From Myxococcales bacterium (GTDB taxonomy: Bacteria; Myxococcota_A; UBA9160; UBA4427): a DNA stretch of 64,000 nt. The notes beneath the pieces are model-generated. The model was given only the letters and a program-made list of their open reading frames with translations. It was not told the origin of the DNA and made no database searches. The DNA lies in assembly GCA_012959805.1 (NCBI GenBank), contig DUCN01000042.1, forward strand, positions 227,443 through 291,442, in the 5' to 3' direction. A program made the translations under genes and the position numbers. Below, in pieces: positions 37,716-47,131 of the stretch (position 1 is its first letter; the number at the start of each line of letters is the position of its first letter).

Positions 37716-38534
37716 TTGCCAACCAAAGCAAAGAGAGCGGCGAATTCATGCCGCGTCTATTCCTGGAACGTGAATGGCATCCGCGCTGCGACGAAAAAGG
37801 GCCTCGCGGATTGGATCCGAAGGTCCAATGCCGAAATCATCGGACTACAGGAAGTTCGGGCCGGGCTCGACGTGATTCCCGCTGAAGTACTCGCACTCGA
37901 TGACTACCAACATCATTACGTCGCTGCCGAACGAAAAGGTTATTCGGGAGTTGGCCTCCTATCACGCCGGAAGCCGGATCGTCTCGACATTTCTCTCGAG
38001 GAGGAGCGCTTCGATTCCGAAGGTCGTCTTCAGATCGCCCGATTTGGCCGCCTCATCATTGCGAACGGCTATTTCCCCAATGGCTCGGGCAAGGACCGCA
38101 GCAACGATCGCGTCGAATACAAACTCGACTGGTATCGGGCGCTCTTTGATCGACTCCAGAAATGGCGCCGAGCCGGCTACCGAGTCTTAGTCATGGGTGA
38201 CTACAACACCGCCCACAAGGAAATCGACCTCGCCCGTCCGAAAGACAATCGGAAGACTTCCGGCTTCCTGATCAAAGAATGCGAAGAACTCGATCGGTGG
38301 GCCGAGGCCGGCTGGATCGATACATTTCGTGAATTCGAGAGCGGACCCGGACACTATTCATGGTGGAGCCAGCGCTTCGGTGTCCGAGCCAAGAATGTCG
38401 GTTGGCGTCTCGATTACGTCTTCGCATCACCCTCGGCCATGCCCTTCGTACGAAATGCCTTTATCGAACCAGACGTGATGGGCTCGGATCATTGTCCCGT
38501 CGGCGTGGACCTCGACCCAGCCATCTTCGACTAG
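37716..38534 (+). CDS. xth: Exodeoxyribonuclease III (AP endonuclease)
   Basis: 272 residues of the EEP nuclease family. Motifs are YSWNVNGIRA, the catalytic Glu in IGLQEVRAG, MGDYNTAHKEIDLARP, RLDYVFAS and the C-terminal GSDHCPVGVDL. It repairs abasic sites and 3' blocks. It starts with TTG 3 bases after the speA stop, so it is the third gene of hisS-speA-xth. Its TAG stop overlaps the stop of the convergent rhomboid-fold gene at CTAG. Confidence 0.95.
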   Translation: MPTKAKRAANSCRVYSWNVNGIRAATKKGLADWIRRSNAEIIGLQEVRAGLDVIPAEVLALDDYQHHYVAAERKGYSGVGLLSRRKPDRLDISLEEERFDSEGRLQIARFGRLIIANGYFPNGSGKDRSNDRVEYKLDWYRALFDRLQKWRRAGYRVLVMGDYNTAHKEIDLARPKDNRKTSGFLIKECEELDRWAEAGWIDTFREFESGPGHYSWWSQRFGVRAKNVGWRLDYVFASPSAMPFVRNAFIEPDVMGSDHCPVGVDLDPAIFD

Positions 38535-41191
38535 CTCTCGTCTTCTTGGGCGGCGTCCAGAACTTCGTGTTCATACGCCTCGACCGATGCGAAGTGCTGA
38601 AAAATCCCGTTCAAAATCTCGCGCGAGGGCAGACAATTCGCGTTTGAACCGGCCTGTAATCGATTCACCCAGGCCGTGAGTGCGGCGAGTGGATTCGGCG
38701 CGTCCGGTACGAACTGACGAGGATCGAATCGATCACTGCGGAAGCGAATCGACTTCATGGCCTCGGCGTTCTCTGCGACGGCCGAGGATCCCGACAAGAT
38801 GCAATCGACGACAAGAACCGACTTCGGCCCAAGCCCATCGATCGCGGCCATCGACAGCGTCTGAATCCGGGCGAATGGAAGCTTTGTTTTTCCTTTTGGC
38901 GACGCATCGATCTCGACATAGTCCGCGCCCATCGAAATCGGAACGGCCTCAAGTGCCTTGAGTGGCCGAAGCGCGACCTCGCCAAGTGATCGGGTCGAAT
39001 GACTCGACAGTGGCGTCACCTCGGAGGCCGGCGCATCGAAGAACATGGTCGGCTGGGCGAAGAACCCAGTCGCCGAATCCGCGACCGGCAACTCGATTGA
39101 TGCCACGGTCTCATTCGGAACGAGTGGACTGGTCAGCTCATCCGTTGCATCGACTCCGACATCAATCATCGGCGTGAGATCCGAGTCCCTCTCGTCCTCC
39201 TGCCCTGCGAAGAAATCGGAACCCGAGGCGCTCGGTCTAAAGTCGAACCCGCTTTCGCTGGCTTCGAGAGCACTCCCGTCCGGAAACTCCTCACCCAAGT
39301 CTCCCCCGAAGAGATCGACCGATTGGCCTAACACGGATGCACTTGCCAACACGGTGGTGTTTCTCAACAAGGAAGCGTCGGACAGCGAGTCGGAGTCGTT
39401 CCGATGCGACAGGACATCAGCGGTTTCTGTACTTGCTCGCCCAGAAGCGTCGCCGAAGCCATCCGCTGTGCTCGAAATCGGAGCGAGAACCCCGGACTCG
39501 GCATCTCCTTCTGCAGCCGCCGGTGCACCCGGAGCCGAGTCCGTTGACGACAAGCTCTCCAGGGAAAGAGCGCCCGCGTCAAGCGACTGTGCGGCAAGCT
39601 GAGATTCATTCGAATCCATCTGCGAAAAGTCTTCAACCGCCTCGATCGGAAAAACCGTTGCCTCGACTGCATGATGCTCAGCAGAGACCCGCCGATCGAG
39701 TTGGGACCGACTTTTGAATTCGGGTTCCGGGGGCGCCTGCTCCGCTTGATCTGCTGAATCGTCTGAAGTGGCCAGGATCGGCTCGAGCTCCGCACGTAAC
39801 TTGGCATCGAGACTCGAATCACCGATCGCAATCGCGGCCGCCCGACGGGCAAGCGACTCATCCAGATCCCGGGCAATCCGGACGATTCGAGCTGCGTGAA
39901 CGGCCGAGACACCCACATCGATGGCCGACCGAAAGGTAAAGATCGCCTCCTTTGGATGCCCAGCATCCAGAAGTGCCTCGCCTAACTTCACCGCGGCCGT
40001 CGAGTCGATCCGTACATCACATCCCTTGGCCGCAAGGGGGAACCAGTAGTCGATGGCACGAGCAATTTCGCCCTTGCGAAGCGCCTGATGAAGACTCGGA
40101 ACGATGGCTTCCGCAGCCGCCTCGGGCTGGTCGACTTCGACAGCGATCGAGAAGAAGGCCTCGGCAATTTCAGAGCTGCTCGAATCGTCACGCCACGCGG
40201 CCTGAATTAAATCGAAGGCCTGATACGGGTCGCCATCCGATAGCAACCGCGCAGCGCGCGAAACGATCGGGTTGGGCCGCTGGTTCACCCGGCGAGCGGC
40301 AATCCTGGAATCCAAATGGGTGAGCCGTAATCCGCCGGCGAACACAGCCCCGATCCCGACAGACGCACAAAACGTTGCCCAGGAAACGCTGCCCAGAGAA
40401 TCGATCCAGAAACCGCGGACAACGAACGCTTCCAATCCCAGCCATAAAGGCAGAAGAATCCACCCGGGGATCGTAAAGTGCCCCCCGAGTCCGCGAATGA
40501 AGTACGCTCCGAGCAGCGCACCCGCCAGTCCGGCAGCGCCGCTCCAAGGAACACCGCTTGAAGCATCCAGAATTCGGTAGCCCTCCGCTGAAAGCGGGAT
40601 GGCGGCCGCCACGAAGGTCGCAAAGATCAGTGAGCCCCAGGTTATTTCGAGAGCGACGCCGGCCAATAACAAGACTGCAATGGTCAGGGCGACACCGATC
40701 TCGTTGGGCTGGACGAACGCATGGATGAAATAATTCGGGGTCGGCGTTCGCGAGTCGAGCACGCCGTATTGCCAAGCCGGATCACTCGTCTGCCTGAGTT
40801 TGTAGGCGGCGGCAATAGATTCATCCAGCCGAGCCTGGGAGCGGGCCAGCATTGCGGCCGGCAAGTCCATTCGGGTGGCAGAGTTGGCCTCCGCCTCCGC
40901 AGTGAGGGCGCGCATTTCAACCAGCCATTCGCGTTCCAGAATCAGGCTGCCGGCGGTGTCCACGCTGAGCTCAGGATTGAGAACCAGGAACGAGCGAGCC
41001 TCCTCACGCACAGCTTCATACAGCCCACTCGATTGTCCTCTCTCATGCGCGAGCAAGAACGGCACGCCGGCAATTGCGGTTGCCAACAGCAGACTCACGA
41101 TCGGCAATTTATTAGGCCAACCCAATTCGATCCTCTCCCCTTTGACGCCAATGCAGGGACCGGTGCAAATGCGCAAAACCGTGGCCTTCAA
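38531..41191 (-). CDS. Rhomboid-fold membrane protein, apparently catalytically inactive, with long C-terminal extension
   Basis: 886 residues. Membrane helices at about 30-48 and 155-290 form a rhomboid-like core (HAF..LEITWG, GALLGAYFIRG). Where rhomboids have GASGA..GLLGAYF, this protein has GAAGLAGALLGAYF, putting Ala220 at the catalytic serine. An alternative alignment could use Ser217. In the last helix the active-site AHxGG is replaced by CASVGIGAVFAGG, with no histidine. A helical-repeat region follows (about 300-470), then about 250 low-complexity Ser/Asp/Glu-rich residues. The C-terminal domain (about 745-885) is globular and possibly PH-like. A pseudoprotease role such as binding membrane clients is inferred. 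Confidence 0.7.
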   Translation of the reverse strand: MKATVLRICTGPCIGVKGERIELGWPNKLPIVSLLLATAIAGVPFLLAHERGQSSGLYEAVREEARSFLVLNPELSVDTAGSLILEREWLVEMRALTAEAEANSATRMDLPAAMLARSQARLDESIAAAYKLRQTSDPAWQYGVLDSRTPTPNYFIHAFVQPNEIGVALTIAVLLLAGVALEITWGSLIFATFVAAAIPLSAEGYRILDASSGVPWSGAAGLAGALLGAYFIRGLGGHFTIPGWILLPLWLGLEAFVVRGFWIDSLGSVSWATFCASVGIGAVFAGGLRLTHLDSRIAARRVNQRPNPIVSRAARLLSDGDPYQAFDLIQAAWRDDSSSSEIAEAFFSIAVEVDQPEAAAEAIVPSLHQALRKGEIARAIDYWFPLAAKGCDVRIDSTAAVKLGEALLDAGHPKEAIFTFRSAIDVGVSAVHAARIVRIARDLDESLARRAAAIAIGDSSLDAKLRAELEPILATSDDSADQAEQAPPEPEFKSRSQLDRRVSAEHHAVEATVFPIEAVEDFSQMDSNESQLAAQSLDAGALSLESLSSTDSAPGAPAAAEGDAESGVLAPISSTADGFGDASGRASTETADVLSHRNDSDSLSDASLLRNTTVLASASVLGQSVDLFGGDLGEEFPDGSALEASESGFDFRPSASGSDFFAGQEDERDSDLTPMIDVGVDATDELTSPLVPNETVASIELPVADSATGFFAQPTMFFDAPASEVTPLSSHSTRSLGEVALRPLKALEAVPISMGADYVEIDASPKGKTKLPFARIQTLSMAAIDGLGPKSVLVVDCILSGSSAVAENAEAMKSIRFRSDRFDPRQFVPDAPNPLAALTAWVNRLQAGSNANCLPSREILNGIFQHFASVEAYEHEVLDAAQEDES

Positions 41192-41202
41192 CCGGAAGAC
41201 AC

Positions 41203-41248
41203 ACGTTCTCCGTCTAAACGGACGGAGAACGTCCCCGCCTTAGCGGGA
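41203..41248. promoter_or_regulatory. Tandem hairpins between divergent genes
   Basis: ACGTTCTCCGT, an 8-base loop, then ACGGAGAACGT (41203-41232): an 11-bp perfect palindrome in the 63-base gap between the rhomboid-fold gene and the PHP lipoprotein. A second hairpin CCCGC-CTTA-GCGGG follows at about 41235-41248. Position suggests an operator or shared 5' leader element. No T tract follows. Confidence 0.45.
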
Positions 41249-41254
41249 ATTGAT

Positions 41255-43576
41255 GTGGGCCATCACACACCGAGAGAAGTGCCCACCCCCACAGGGAGTC
41301 GAGCTCGCAACACGTTTCACAGAACATTCGGCTGGGTCGTGCTGACACTCTGTGCGTGGATTTTCGCAGGATGCAACGGGCAGGAGGATGAGTCTGCGAT
41401 CTCCTCCGATTCAATGGTCCAGACAACAGCCGACATGAATCCAAACTCTGCTCGGAACGAAGGGCGCGACGACGCCCTTTCCGAGCAAGCATCATCATTC
41501 ACGTTTCCAGACGACTGGGACAGACAGCATCCGATTCTCTCGCCTAACGCGAAAGTCGAAGCGTATCTTGGAAGCCTGGCCGAGAAAGAGATCGTCTTTC
41601 ACCCCGCAGATGGCGGCGGACGCGCCTGGCTCGTCGCGCAAACATCGATCGATACGCAGTGGCAAGCATCGGATTGGCGGCGGGCTGATGGTCCATCCCA
41701 TCGCGAAGACCCTTCACCACCCGTACCCGTCTCCACCGCACAGAAGATTGAGTTAGTCTTCGAAGTTGGGCCTCTGGGAATTCGCGAAGGCGGAATCCTA
41801 TACGTCATGCCCGAGCCCTTCTGGTCTTGGAGCGAAGCCCAGGCCGAGACCCCCTATCTAGTCGGATATACGACCGCGACCGCACGTCTCGCCGACGTCG
41901 AGCTCGTGCCCATGGTCGGTGGCGGGATCTTTCGAGTCGAAGGCCGTGCGCTCGAACCCGGGGAACAAATCGACATCGTCCTCGGGGCTGGATCCATGGG
42001 CACGATCGTCGACGAATTCGCTGGACGAGAGGCCGAAATTTTGGTGGCCGTGGATGCCGACGGCGACGGCACACGGCGTTGGATAGAGAAATCCGCCCGT
42101 CTCCATATTGGCGCGCGCGCCGGGACACGAATCATCGCCCTGGGCCCAGCCGACGTCGCTCCCGGGTCATCCATCGAACTCAACATCGCAATCGTCGACG
42201 AGCGGGGAAACCGAGCCCTGTGGCCGGACCATATTCGGGAACCCAATGCGAACGATGATCGTGTGGACCTTCGCGGCGATCGCCGTGTCGCGAGTGAATT
42301 CGAGATCGACGTGATTCAGGGTCCTTCTCTCGAGATGCTAGGTCTAAATCCTCGGGTCGAGCTGGACGGCCCGGCCGCAGACGCCCATCGAATTCGATTC
42401 ACCGCACCCAACACGCCCGACACGATCCGATTGGTGATTCGTGGACGAGGCGCGCTCGCGGATTTCGAATCCGTGGTCAATCCAATCGTCGTGCGGAATT
42501 CAAAGACTCGACTGATCTGGGCCGACCTTCATGGTCATACCGGACTCTCCGACGGGACCGGCACGCCGGAAGATTATTTCAGGTACGCGCGCGAGATCGC
42601 TCGCCTAGATGCCATCGCACTCACCGACCATGACCATTGGGGCGTCCGTCCGATCGACGAATTCCACGAAATCGCCGATCGAATCCTCACAACCTCCGAG
42701 CGTTTTCATGATCCCGGGCGCTTCGTCACCATCCCCGGATACGAATGGACCAGCTGGCTACACGGCCATCGGCACGTTCTCTACTTCGACGAAGATGTTG
42801 CGCAGACCCCCATCTATTCCTCCATCGACCCCGCAACGGATCGGCCGGACGAACTCTGGGATGCCTTGCGCGGCCGGAACGCGCTCACCTTCGCTCATCA
42901 TTCCGCCGGCGAACCCGTCGCGACGAACTGGTTCTTTCCACCAGATCCACTGCTCGAACCGCTGACTGAAATCTCCTCTATTCATGGCATGAGCGAAGCC
43001 GACGACGTGCCGATTCCCGTCGCCGGCGCGATCCCCGGCAATTTCGTTCGAGACGTTCTGCTGCGAGGCGCACGGCTTGGCTTCATCGGCAGCGGCGACT
43101 CACATGACGGCCATCCGGGTCTCGCCAAACTCGCCGCCGGTGACCAAGGCGGACTTGCCGGCATATTCACGACAAGTCTCGATCGCAAGGGACTCCTGGG
43201 CGCCATGCGCGCAAGACACACCTTCGCAACGAATGGAATCCGACCCTGGCTCTCGGTTTCGATCGATGCGACAGCAATGGGGGGAGGGCTAGCGGTTTCG
43301 TCCACGGCACCGGCGAATCATCGACTGCATATCCGCTACGAGGCCACAGCGCCCATCCTTCGCATCGATCTCATTCGCAGCGGTCGAGTGGCACTGATCG
43401 ATGGGGACGGGGCCCTCTCGCTCGACTTCGAACGAATCATTCCGCCGCTCGTCCCGGGCGATTTTCATTATGTCCGAATCATTCAGGAAGGAGGAGGAGT
43501 CGCGTGGTCGAGTCCGATTTTCGCGGACCGGGCCGAGCTAGAGATCGCACCGAACGCTGGATCTCCCGACAACTAA
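41255..43576 (+). CDS. PHP/DUF3604 domain lipoprotein
   Basis: About 773 residues from GTG at 41255; an alternative GTG is at 41279, and there is no ATG. A signal peptide with a lipobox (WIFAGC) predicts membrane lipidation. Residues to about 400 are beta-rich. The metal-binding PHP core begins IWADLHGHTGLSDGTGTPEDY and continues with ALTDHDHW, FVTIPGYEWTSW, ALTFAHHSAG and FIGSGDSHDG. These His/Asp clusters should bind two or three metal ions, giving a phosphoesterase or related hydrolase outside the cytoplasm. DUF3604 substrates are unknown. It is divergent from the rhomboid-fold gene. Confidence 0.85.
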   Translation: MGHHTPREVPTPTGSRARNTFHRTFGWVVLTLCAWIFAGCNGQEDESAISSDSMVQTTADMNPNSARNEGRDDALSEQASSFTFPDDWDRQHPILSPNAKVEAYLGSLAEKEIVFHPADGGGRAWLVAQTSIDTQWQASDWRRADGPSHREDPSPPVPVSTAQKIELVFEVGPLGIREGGILYVMPEPFWSWSEAQAETPYLVGYTTATARLADVELVPMVGGGIFRVEGRALEPGEQIDIVLGAGSMGTIVDEFAGREAEILVAVDADGDGTRRWIEKSARLHIGARAGTRIIALGPADVAPGSSIELNIAIVDERGNRALWPDHIREPNANDDRVDLRGDRRVASEFEIDVIQGPSLEMLGLNPRVELDGPAADAHRIRFTAPNTPDTIRLVIRGRGALADFESVVNPIVVRNSKTRLIWADLHGHTGLSDGTGTPEDYFRYAREIARLDAIALTDHDHWGVRPIDEFHEIADRILTTSERFHDPGRFVTIPGYEWTSWLHGHRHVLYFDEDVAQTPIYSSIDPATDRPDELWDALRGRNALTFAHHSAGEPVATNWFFPPDPLLEPLTEISSIHGMSEADDVPIPVAGAIPGNFVRDVLLRGARLGFIGSGDSHDGHPGLAKLAAGDQGGLAGIFTTSLDRKGLLGAMRARHTFATNGIRPWLSVSIDATAMGGGLAVSSTAPANHRLHIRYEATAPILRIDLIRSGRVALIDGDGALSLDFERIIPPLVPGDFHYVRIIQEGGGVAWSSPIFADRAELEIAPNAGSPDN

Positions 43577-43606: not shown

Positions 43607-43903
43607 CTAGAGTCGGAACCGATCAATGTTTTCTTCGAGTCGCTGCGCATGTGCGGCGAGATCCGAAACGGTTTCGTTTGCCTGGACGGCCTGCTCGTCA
43701 TTGAAGAGCAATGAAGCTTTGGAGTTGCCACCAATCACGCGAGCAACTCCGATCAGATTTTCGTTCGTCATGTCCTGGAACTGAAGAAACGCCGTGCCTG
43801 AGAGCGCGCCGGCGGTCAGGAGCAGGACTAGCCCGGCCGTGGCCAAGAACTCGCATACGATCCGCTGCTGAATTGAATTGCGACCGACGTCGAATTCGCT
43901 CAT
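43607..43903 (-). CDS. Small membrane protein: CHASE8-like sensor fragment joined to a chemoreceptor-like tail
   Basis: 98 residues. One membrane helix (about 17-41) is followed by ARVIGGNSKASLLFNDEQAV, the hallmark of the periplasmic CHASE8 domain in YfiN-type diguanylate cyclases and related receptors. The next segment (ANETVSDLAAHAQRLEENIDRFRL) resembles the extreme C-terminus of methyl-accepting chemotaxis proteins. HAMP and signalling or GGDEF domains are absent, and the ORF ends cleanly 30 bases from the convergent gene. It may be an internal deletion product or a genuine mini-receptor. It lies 8 bases behind a YfiR-like gene. Confidence 0.65.
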   Translation of the reverse strand: MSEFDVGRNSIQQRIVCEFLATAGLVLLLTAGALSGTAFLQFQDMTNENLIGVARVIGGNSKASLLFNDEQAVQANETVSDLAAHAQRLEENIDRFRL

Positions 43904-43911
43904 ACCACGAC

Positions 43912-44448
43912 CTACCTCACGACCTTCGCCAGCCGAAGAAGGCGCGAACTGACTTTGAGCCCAGCCGCTTTCGCTGCATCCGCGTTGATCTCGAAACGGA
44001 TGCGGCTCTCTGAACCAATGAAGTTGGAGATCCCGCCCGCCGTTGCGAATTCCTCGCGGTCGGAAACGCTGAAGACGCTTTGTCCGCGAAGAGACGCAAC
44101 AGCATCATCGTGCGCGGTATCGAGATCGTGGCCGCTGAAGAGAATGTGGCAACCGCTCGTGAGTTCCAGTTTGGCGATCGAACGGACGGCGGCGGAGCGA
44201 TTGCCGACACGCTTTTCGGACACTACGCGAGTCACCACATCCGAAAAATCGCCCGATCCAAGAAGACAGATCTCGACGGGCGAATCAGATCGATCGAAGG
44301 CATTCTTGGGCCATTCCACATAGCACGCAAAATTGAAAAGGAAGGCGGCCATGATCGGGTCTTCGGACTGTGCTTTGGCTTTTGGCGCAAACAGAAGCGA
44401 AGTTGCAAAAAGGGCAATAAACGCCGCCAGCAATGCACCCATTGGCAC
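43912..44448 (-). CDS. YfiR family periplasmic protein (DUF4154)
   Basis: 178 residues with a signal peptide (to about AKAQS) and the YfiR pattern: AAFLFNFACYVEWP, VEICLLGSGDF, GCHILFSGHD, GQSVFSVSDREEFATAGGISNFI, IRFEINADAAKAAGLKVSSRLLRLAKVV. In Pseudomonas, YfiR is a periplasmic inhibitor of the diguanylate cyclase YfiN, which it binds through the CHASE8 domain. Here the next gene encodes only a CHASE8-like fragment. One cysteine pair (CHILF and an upstream Cys) could be redox-active, as described for YfiR. Confidence 0.88.
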   Translation of the reverse strand: MPMGALLAAFIALFATSLLFAPKAKAQSEDPIMAAFLFNFACYVEWPKNAFDRSDSPVEICLLGSGDFSDVVTRVVSEKRVGNRSAAVRSIAKLELTSGCHILFSGHDLDTAHDDAVASLRGQSVFSVSDREEFATAGGISNFIGSESRIRFEINADAAKAAGLKVSSRLLRLAKVVR

Positions 44449-44643
44449 TGCTCGTCACCGGCATCGAACGCTTCTAATCTCACTCGCTCGAAACACGCTT
44501 CGAACTCCAGATAGGAAGCCGGGTGCTTCCACAGTGAATTGCATCGCCAACTCGTCGGCGAAAAACGATCCCTCCATGAGAAACGACACTCATGCGAGGC
44601 GAATTACCCACATTCCGGGTTCAGCACCTCCATTCAAAGCCAG

Positions 44644-45690
44644 ATGAGCCCCCGAATTTCTATATTGCTGCCGGTCTGGAACGCTGAACGGACACTCCCC
44701 GCCTGCCTACAGAGTTGTCTGCGCCAACGAGAAGTGGATTGGGAATGCATCCTCCTCGACGACGGCTCAACCGACCGCTCTCTCGAAATTGCTCGCGGCT
44801 TTGCGAATCACGACTCCCGGATTCACGTCGAAGCTTGCCGCCATACCGGACTCATACCGACGCTCAACGCAGCAATTCCACTCTGCACAGCGCCGATCAT
44901 CGCTCGAATGGACGCCGACGACTGGATGCATCGAGATCGACTGCAACTACAAGCCCGCGCACTGGAAGAGAACCCCTCACTCGAAGCCGTTGGCTCTTTC
45001 GTTCGAATCTTCCCGCGACGCGAGATGCGAGACGGGCGTCGAGACTACGAAACATGGCTCAGTGAACAGAAGGACGCGGCCACAATCTGGCGCGAGCGAT
45101 TCATCGAATGCCCGATTCCACACCCGACCCTCGCCATTCGGAAACCAATTCTCGAAGAACTCGGATACAGAGATCGCCTTTGGCCCGAAGACTATGACCT
45201 GCTTCTGCGACTGCTGCGGAGAGGTCCGTGTGTTGGGAATGTCAATCGCCGGCTACTCGGTTGGCGCGACGGACCGAAGCGTCTGTCCCGAAACGACTCG
45301 CGCTACGAACAGGCTCGCTTCACGGCCTGCCGTGCCTGGCATCTACATCGAGACTATCTTGCGGGCAAACCAGACTACATTCTCTGGGGACATGGCAAGA
45401 CGGGACGCGCGTTACGCCGCGAGCTAACGACCCTCGGACATCACGCGACGTTCATCGTGGACGTCCATCCACGCCGCATCGGAGAGCGCATCGGCGGCGC
45501 TCTTGTGATCGCGCCGGAAGATCTCGCCAGGCTGCCCGGCCATGCCAAGGGAACCCCCTCACCGTCAGCCCCGGGTCCGATCGACCCCGTGATCGTGTCC
45601 GTCGCCGGCCGAGGCCCGCGCAACCAAATCCGTGCGGCGCTCAGCGCGATTGGGCTTCGCGAGGGAGTGGGGTTTATTTGCGCCGCCTAA
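44644..45690 (+). CDS. Family 2 glycosyltransferase with C-terminal Rossmann-like domain
   Basis: 348 residues from the ATG at 44644. The GT-A core begins ISILLPVWNAERTLPACLQSCL, with a DDGS nucleotide-binding site, the metal-binding DAD in ARMDADDWM, and a later GYRDRLWPEDYDLLLRLL. The last ~100 residues start ILWGHGKTGRALRRELTTLGH and continue VDVHPRRIGERIGG..VIVSVAGRGPRNQIRAAL. These look like a dinucleotide-binding fold similar to the N-terminal part of PglD-type acyltransferases. No other polysaccharide genes are nearby; the 195 bases before it carry nothing recognisable. Confidence 0.88.
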   Translation: MSPRISILLPVWNAERTLPACLQSCLRQREVDWECILLDDGSTDRSLEIARGFANHDSRIHVEACRHTGLIPTLNAAIPLCTAPIIARMDADDWMHRDRLQLQARALEENPSLEAVGSFVRIFPRREMRDGRRDYETWLSEQKDAATIWRERFIECPIPHPTLAIRKPILEELGYRDRLWPEDYDLLLRLLRRGPCVGNVNRRLLGWRDGPKRLSRNDSRYEQARFTACRAWHLHRDYLAGKPDYILWGHGKTGRALRRELTTLGHHATFIVDVHPRRIGERIGGALVIAPEDLARLPGHAKGTPSPSAPGPIDPVIVSVAGRGPRNQIRAALSAIGLREGVGFICAA

Positions 45691-45742: not shown

Positions 45743-47131
45743 TCAAAACTCGGCCGAACCCGGAGCACGCGGAAAGGGCGAAACATCTCGGATATTGGCC
45801 ATCCCGGTCATGAATTGGACGATTCGCTCAAATCCGAGTCCGAAGCCCGCATGCGGCACGCTTCCGTAACGGCGCAGATCCAGATACCACCAATAATCGT
45901 CGGGATCCAGGCCCTGAGCTCGAATCGCCCCTTCAAGGACATCGAGTCTGTGCTCCCGCTGCGATCCCCCGATGATCTCCCCAACACCGCCTAACAAGAC
46001 ATCCATCGCTGCGACAGTTTCCTCATCATCATTGCGGTACATATAGAAAGCCTTGATCGAGGCTGGCCAGTCCGTGACCACAATGGGACGCCCGACGTGC
46101 TTCTCCGTCAGCCAGCGTTCATGCTCGCTTTGCAAGTCGAGACCCTGACCCACCGGAAACTCGAACTTCTCCCCACAGCCTTCGAGAATCCGCATCGCCT
46201 CTCGATACGGAATCCGCTCGAAGGGCTCATCGATCACCGTCTTCATCCGCGTGATCGCCTGGCTCTCGATGCGTTTCTCGAAGAACGCCATATCGTCCTC
46301 GCATCGGTCCAGGACATCGGCAAAGACGGATTTCAAGAAGCGTTCCGCCAAATCGGCCAGAGCTTCGAGATCATAAAACGCGGCTTCGGGCTCGACCATC
46401 CAGAACTCGGCGAGATGTCGCGCCGTGTTCGAGTTCTCCGCGCGAAAAGTTGGACCGAAGGTATAGACGCGTGACAGCGCGAGCGCGCCGATTTCGGCTT
46501 CGAGCTGCCCCGACACCGTCAAAAAAGTCGGTCGACCGAAGAAGTCCTCGCTTGCGTCGATCGATCCGTCTTCCTTGCGCTCATCGACGCCCGGAGGAAG
46601 AGTCGTCACACGAAACATCTCACCCGCCCCCTCGGCGTCCGAGGCAGTCACGATGGGCGTTTGCAGATAGAAGAACTCCTCGTTTTGAAAGAAGTTGTGG
46701 ATCGCCATCGAAGCGGCATTTCGAATCCGAAGAATGGCGCCGATCGTATTCGTTCGCGGCCGAAGGTGTGCGATGGTGCGAAGAAATTCGAAGCTATGCC
46801 TCTTCTTTTGCAGCGGATAGCCCTCCGCCACGTCGCCCACGAGTTCGACCTTCGTGGCGTGCAGCTCATAGCGCTGTCCTTTTCCCGGCGACTCGACGAC
46901 CACGCCCTCGGCGCGAACCGCACAACCGGTCGAGAGTTGACGAACCACGGAGTCAAATCCCTCGGTTTCCGGATTCGCTACGACCTGTAATCCATCCATG
47001 CAAGAGCCATCGTTGACATCGAGAAACGACACCTCCTTGGCATGGCGCACCGTCCGAAGCCAGCCTTGCACCACGCCGGCATCGCCGGCCGTTGGGCGGC
47101 CGAGCATGCCTCGGATCGATTCGAATCCCAT
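45743..47131 (-). CDS. asnS: Asparagine-tRNA ligase
   Basis: 462 residues. An N-terminal OB fold ([25 protein letters not shown]) is followed by the class IIb catalytic domain. Motif 2 lies in [27 protein letters not shown], motif 3 in [38 protein letters not shown] and the AEFWMVEPE pattern fit AsnRS rather than AspRS. Full length and intact, transcribed away from rbgA. Confidence 0.95.

Follow-up and report, generated by a model that had tools for sequence, protein, structure and literature searches.

We have analysed a YfiR-linked locus in a window, the whole stretch of 64,000 nucleotides corresponding to C42:227443-291442 of its own genome (G000), a 4.46-Mb draft in 136 contigs that is 90% complete. 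The genes and features at the locus are the following.

40721..43576, plus strand: DUF3604 (PHP-like) protein, convergent neighbour, used as a synteny anchor
43607..43903, minus strand: 98-aa ORF, very probably what is left of a CHASE8-HAMP-MCP receptor, namely residues 1-72 and the final ~26
43610..43687, minus strand: receptor C-terminal tail, residues 73-98 of the ORF, VQANETVSDLAAHAQRLEENIDRFRL, identified by its match to receptor ends in relatives
43676..43693, minus strand: junction of the deletion, at the QAVQAN codons (residues 71-76), the two sides having only short stretches in common in relatives
43703..43717, minus strand: ASLLF, residues 63-67, aligned by eye with the YfiR-binding motif AAVVF of YfiN
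43778..43864, minus strand: the single remaining membrane helix, a hydropathy segment at residues 14-42
43912..44448, minus strand: YfiR/DUF4154 periplasmic protein of 178 aa, identified by PF13689 and by PDB YfiR matches
44539..45690, plus strand: family 2 glycosyltransferase, divergent neighbour, used as a synteny anchor
45743..47131, minus strand: class II (D/K/N) aminoacyl-tRNA synthetase, Asn-type by inference, used as a synteny anchor and tree marker

The YfiR ORF lies 8 bases upstream of the 98-aa ORF and both are encoded on the minus strand. A YfiR-like product had been proposed here in the initial annotation and is confirmed by a match to PF13689 (DUF4154) with E=4.7e-38 and 130.9 bits against a cut-off of 24.9, covering positions 3-143 of the 143 in the profile, and by matches to solved YfiR structures, e.g. 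4yn7 and 4zhu, at E ~1e-9. The 98-aa ORF does join a membrane helix and a CHASE8 fragment to a chemoreceptor tail, as had been noticed, the CHASE8 match being partial (profile positions 2-43 of 102) and, at 22.4 bits, below the Pfam cut-off of 27, such that a complete CHASE8 domain scoring over the curated cut-off is lacking. The reported absence of HAMP and signalling domains also held, as a Pfam search detected neither HAMP nor MCPsignal in the ORF while both are present in intact orthologues; the HAMP, MCPsignal and two membrane helices of a CHASE8-HAMP-MCP receptor are thus not found together in this protein. No solved structure matching the CHASE8 part by sequence was found. Beside the DUF3604 gene, the true start of which is probably downstream of its first start codon, an 886-aa minus-strand ORF (38531-41191) is conserved in most of the genus and gave no Pfam match at E<=0.001.

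Intact receptors in related genomes

When the 98-aa protein was searched against 60 related genomes, several genomes of the same genus gave two distinct hits for each receptor: a single long ORF matched residues 1 to ~84 in its first part and residues ~70-98 in its last. Amino acid identity was 56-66% for the N-terminal part and 59-66% for the C-terminal part. Intact CHASE8-HAMP-MCP receptors of ~680 aa are encoded downstream of YfiR in G007 (Deltaproteobacteria HyVt-433), ARS1434, G003 and G004, and the G008 receptor is intact as far as its contig end. In the 680-aa G007 receptor, CHASE8 (43-145, complete, 68.9 bits), HAMP (181-232) and MCPsignal (380-561) all score over cut-off. ARS1434, which was added by an alignment-based scan of contigs with YfiR that returned 15 loci, encodes an intact 680-aa receptor 76% identical to that of G007 in the same gene order; a pattern scan of contigs gave no relatives when the 98-aa protein was the query. 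The ARS1434 contig (NZBC01000031.1, L122) is filed under Planctomycetota, and given the shared gene order and a synthetase identity of 84% the organism label of this record looks wrong.

The window and the relatives share the order GTPase, Asn-type tRNA synthetase, glycosyltransferase, YfiR, receptor and DUF3604 protein, and both ends of the 98-aa ORF match a single gene of sister species at this position. Since both ends match one syntenic receptor, the ORF corresponds to receptor residues 1-72 plus the last ~26, with ~582 codons lost in frame. At the level of sequence comparison, these matches establish the 98-aa ORF as the product of an internal deletion in a YfiR-linked receptor gene. The missing receptor segment was not found elsewhere in the G000 assembly, which contains one CHASE8 (the fragment), one YfiR and two other MCPs. 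The initial annotation had left the choice between a deletion and a working mini-protein, and had named full-length receptors in close relatives as the observation that would count against its reading; such receptors exist.

The deletion junction

The junction, predicted near 43681, lies at residues ~72-74, approximately 43680-43690 of the window. In G007 the two sides corresponding to the junction share GAGCAGGC, three codons away from the point of joining in the window, and less sequence is common to both sides in ARS1434; in the relatives, only about 8 bases are common to both sides near the junction. A transposon or phage insertion was rejected as the cause, the site being without inserted sequence.

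That the true genome carries the full receptor and an assembler, or a mixture of strains, dropped 1.75 kb is in keeping with the 136-contig draft state of the assembly. However, the site is well inside a 312-kb contig, no N occurs in the window, the ~8 shared bases in relatives are too short for the usual k-mer collapse and the missing segment does not reappear in the rest of the assembly. In addition, the same gene has decayed in four other assemblies, making real loss likely. An assembly artefact is accordingly considered most improbable.

What the remnant lost and kept

Hydropathy analysis detects one membrane segment in the 98-aa protein as opposed to two in the G007 and ARS1434 receptors, the second at 150-182. 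An AlphaFold2 model of the G007 N-terminus, of moderate confidence (mean pLDDT 74), consists of a long helix (3-57), a poorly predicted loop, a helix (70-82), a beta-sheet (86-148) and the second membrane helix (150-179). As judged from this model, the cut at ~72 takes away nearly everything beyond the loop, including the predicted beta-sheet E86-E148 and the second helix. In YfiN, the site of YfiR binding has been mapped to AAVVF, close to where the periplasmic domain begins (Malone et al. 2012, PMC3375315), and the remnant retains ASLLF at what was judged by eye to be the same position.

The 98-aa ORF is in frame and has no further lesion, and YfiR is intact. In a codon test, omega was 0.06 on the G000 branch and 0.09 in the background, on a branch that is long, saturated for synonymous change and may mostly predate the deletion. 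The codons that are left show apparent constraint, which makes a recent deletion on the G000 branch probable. Unique G000 changes at otherwise invariant positions number 3/26 in the N-terminal part of the remnant, 8/52 in YfiR and 11/282 in the synthetase; the corresponding counts in G008, where the receptor is intact as far as the contig goes, are 1/24, 6/50 and 7/278.

Breakage of the same gene in congeners

The receptor gene is also broken in four congeners. In G002 (Myxococcota PW6.metabat2.187), its coding sequence is spread by frame breaks over several frames and an internal block is deleted, while the neighbouring genes align without interruption. In G001, YfiR has no signal peptide, the glycosyltransferase is truncated and the receptor is reduced to short scraps, including one of 34 aa. 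In G006, only the last ~27 aa of the receptor are left, beside the tRNA synthetase gene. In G005, the YfiR signal peptide continues in the same frame into the C-terminal 119 aa of the receptor (G005:C60, L115 6900-7470), a second accidental-looking ORF at this locus. These copies share locus and gene with the window copy and each is broken by deletion and/or frameshift, but their breakpoints differ from its own and the in-frame fusion in G005 joins the YfiR signal peptide to the receptor end.

Trees were constructed from the Asn-type synthetase and from four concatenated neighbour genes. They place G000 with the intact G007 (79% support), G001 with G002 (100%) and G005 inside the intact G003/G004 group (100%), with G006 apart. 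With broken copies on four or more lineages, an ancestral receptor would have had to decay independently at least four times. No comparable short partner was found among the 60 relatives; the genus has only differently broken copies, and none of the short forms is shared by two or more species. G015 has an open frame of 189 aa that matches CHASE8 weakly.

Gene decay as the most probable explanation

The 98-aa ORF is very probably a decay remnant of a YfiR-linked CHASE8-HAMP-MCP receptor, and the gene is most likely in the process of being lost rather than a new regulator. This explanation is carried by orthology established through synteny, by the exact pieces retained, by a lost segment that does not turn up in the rest of the assembly and by the damage to this gene in four congeners. 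The ancestral operon would have encoded YfiR and a ~680-aa receptor, from which a deletion between short, weakly similar stretches probably removed ~1,746 bp, leaving codon ~72 followed in frame by the final ~26 codons. The product, if made, would be a single-pass membrane peptide that should be unable to signal, because the beta-sheet, the second membrane helix, HAMP and the CheA/CheW-binding hairpin are gone. Assuming standard topology, the receptor tail, normally cytoplasmic, would end up in the periplasm. YfiR would be left partnerless and is probably also being lost.

The intact frame free of further lesions, the lack of relaxed constraint, the intact YfiR and the retention of ASLLF are points against decay. 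The frame, YfiR, the by-eye match of ASLLF to YfiN AAVVF (PMC3375315) and the lack of excess amino acid change would equally fit a deletion product that works as a micro-protein, a single-pass membrane peptide binding YfiR through ASLLF and titrating or anchoring it. Titration would nevertheless have no obvious purpose, as the 90% complete genome encodes no full-length CHASE8 protein for YfiR. Furthermore, the CHASE8 fold ends at position 43 of the 102 in the profile and is without its predicted beta-sheet, none of the relatives in the 60 genomes has a short partner like it and the same gene decays in four congeners. A working micro-protein is therefore very unlikely, and the related evolutionary proposal, that the in-frame deletion yielded a stable single-pass peptide with a YfiR-binding-like stretch which was co-opted to hold or titrate YfiR, a micro-protein born of receptor decay, is highly unlikely. 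Thus, of the two possibilities originally offered, the deletion stands, given the full-length syntenic orthologues, and a working mini-protein is not supported, since a comparable short partner is lacking in the relatives and four congeners are broken differently. What appeared to be a designed mini-receptor is explained, after comparison with sister species, by ordinary gene loss, and repeated loss of a YfiR-linked chemoreceptor is documented in one Myxococcota-type genus.

Relation to known YfiR modules and to chemosensory cluster A

Replacement of GGDEF by MCP domains in YfiR-linked proteins was already reported in 2012 (Malone et al., PMC3375315). The sister copies with intact receptors agree with the YfiR-YfiN core module with MCP output described there, in which a YfiR gene is followed by one for a membrane protein with a PAS-like CHASE8 domain. 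In the window copy, most of CHASE8 is missing and the second membrane helix, HAMP and MCP are all gone; it is a broken representative of this known YfiR-MCP kind. The YfiR homologue is held in common with YfiBNR of Pseudomonas aeruginosa, but the partner there is a diguanylate cyclase and that in the window was a chemoreceptor; no yfiB-type gene is present among the named neighbours of the window locus. CHASE8 proteins in the relatives have MCP, kinase-like or GGDEF outputs, as classified by motif.

The genus has two chemosensory clusters, A and B, cluster A consisting of CheA, two CheW and an MCP. Cluster A is present in G000 (G000:C127:109964-115762, L134) and in 4/4 receptor-bearing genomes tested (G003, G004, G007 and G008), and was not found in G001, G002, G005 (76% complete) or G006, in which only cluster B was detected. 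CHASE8 scores over cut-off in 21/39 genomes with a cluster A-type CheA and in 2/22 without (61 genomes; Fisher p=0.0007), in a post hoc comparison that ignores kinship, is uncorrected for genome completeness and assigns CheA to cluster A-type by our reading of identity and score. One of the two CHASE8 genomes without a cluster A-type CheA is the broken G002. This suggests that the YfiR-linked receptor signalled to cluster A and is prone to disappear along with it; in G000 the receptor is lost and cluster A is still there. The co-occurrence with the cluster A CheA and CheW provides a testable guess at the pathway fed by the uncharacterised YfiR-MCP module. The cluster A MCP of G000 (L134 7171-9762) ends in ESERFRV, which resembles the DRFRL terminus of the YfiR-linked receptor; the two may have a C-terminal signature in common.
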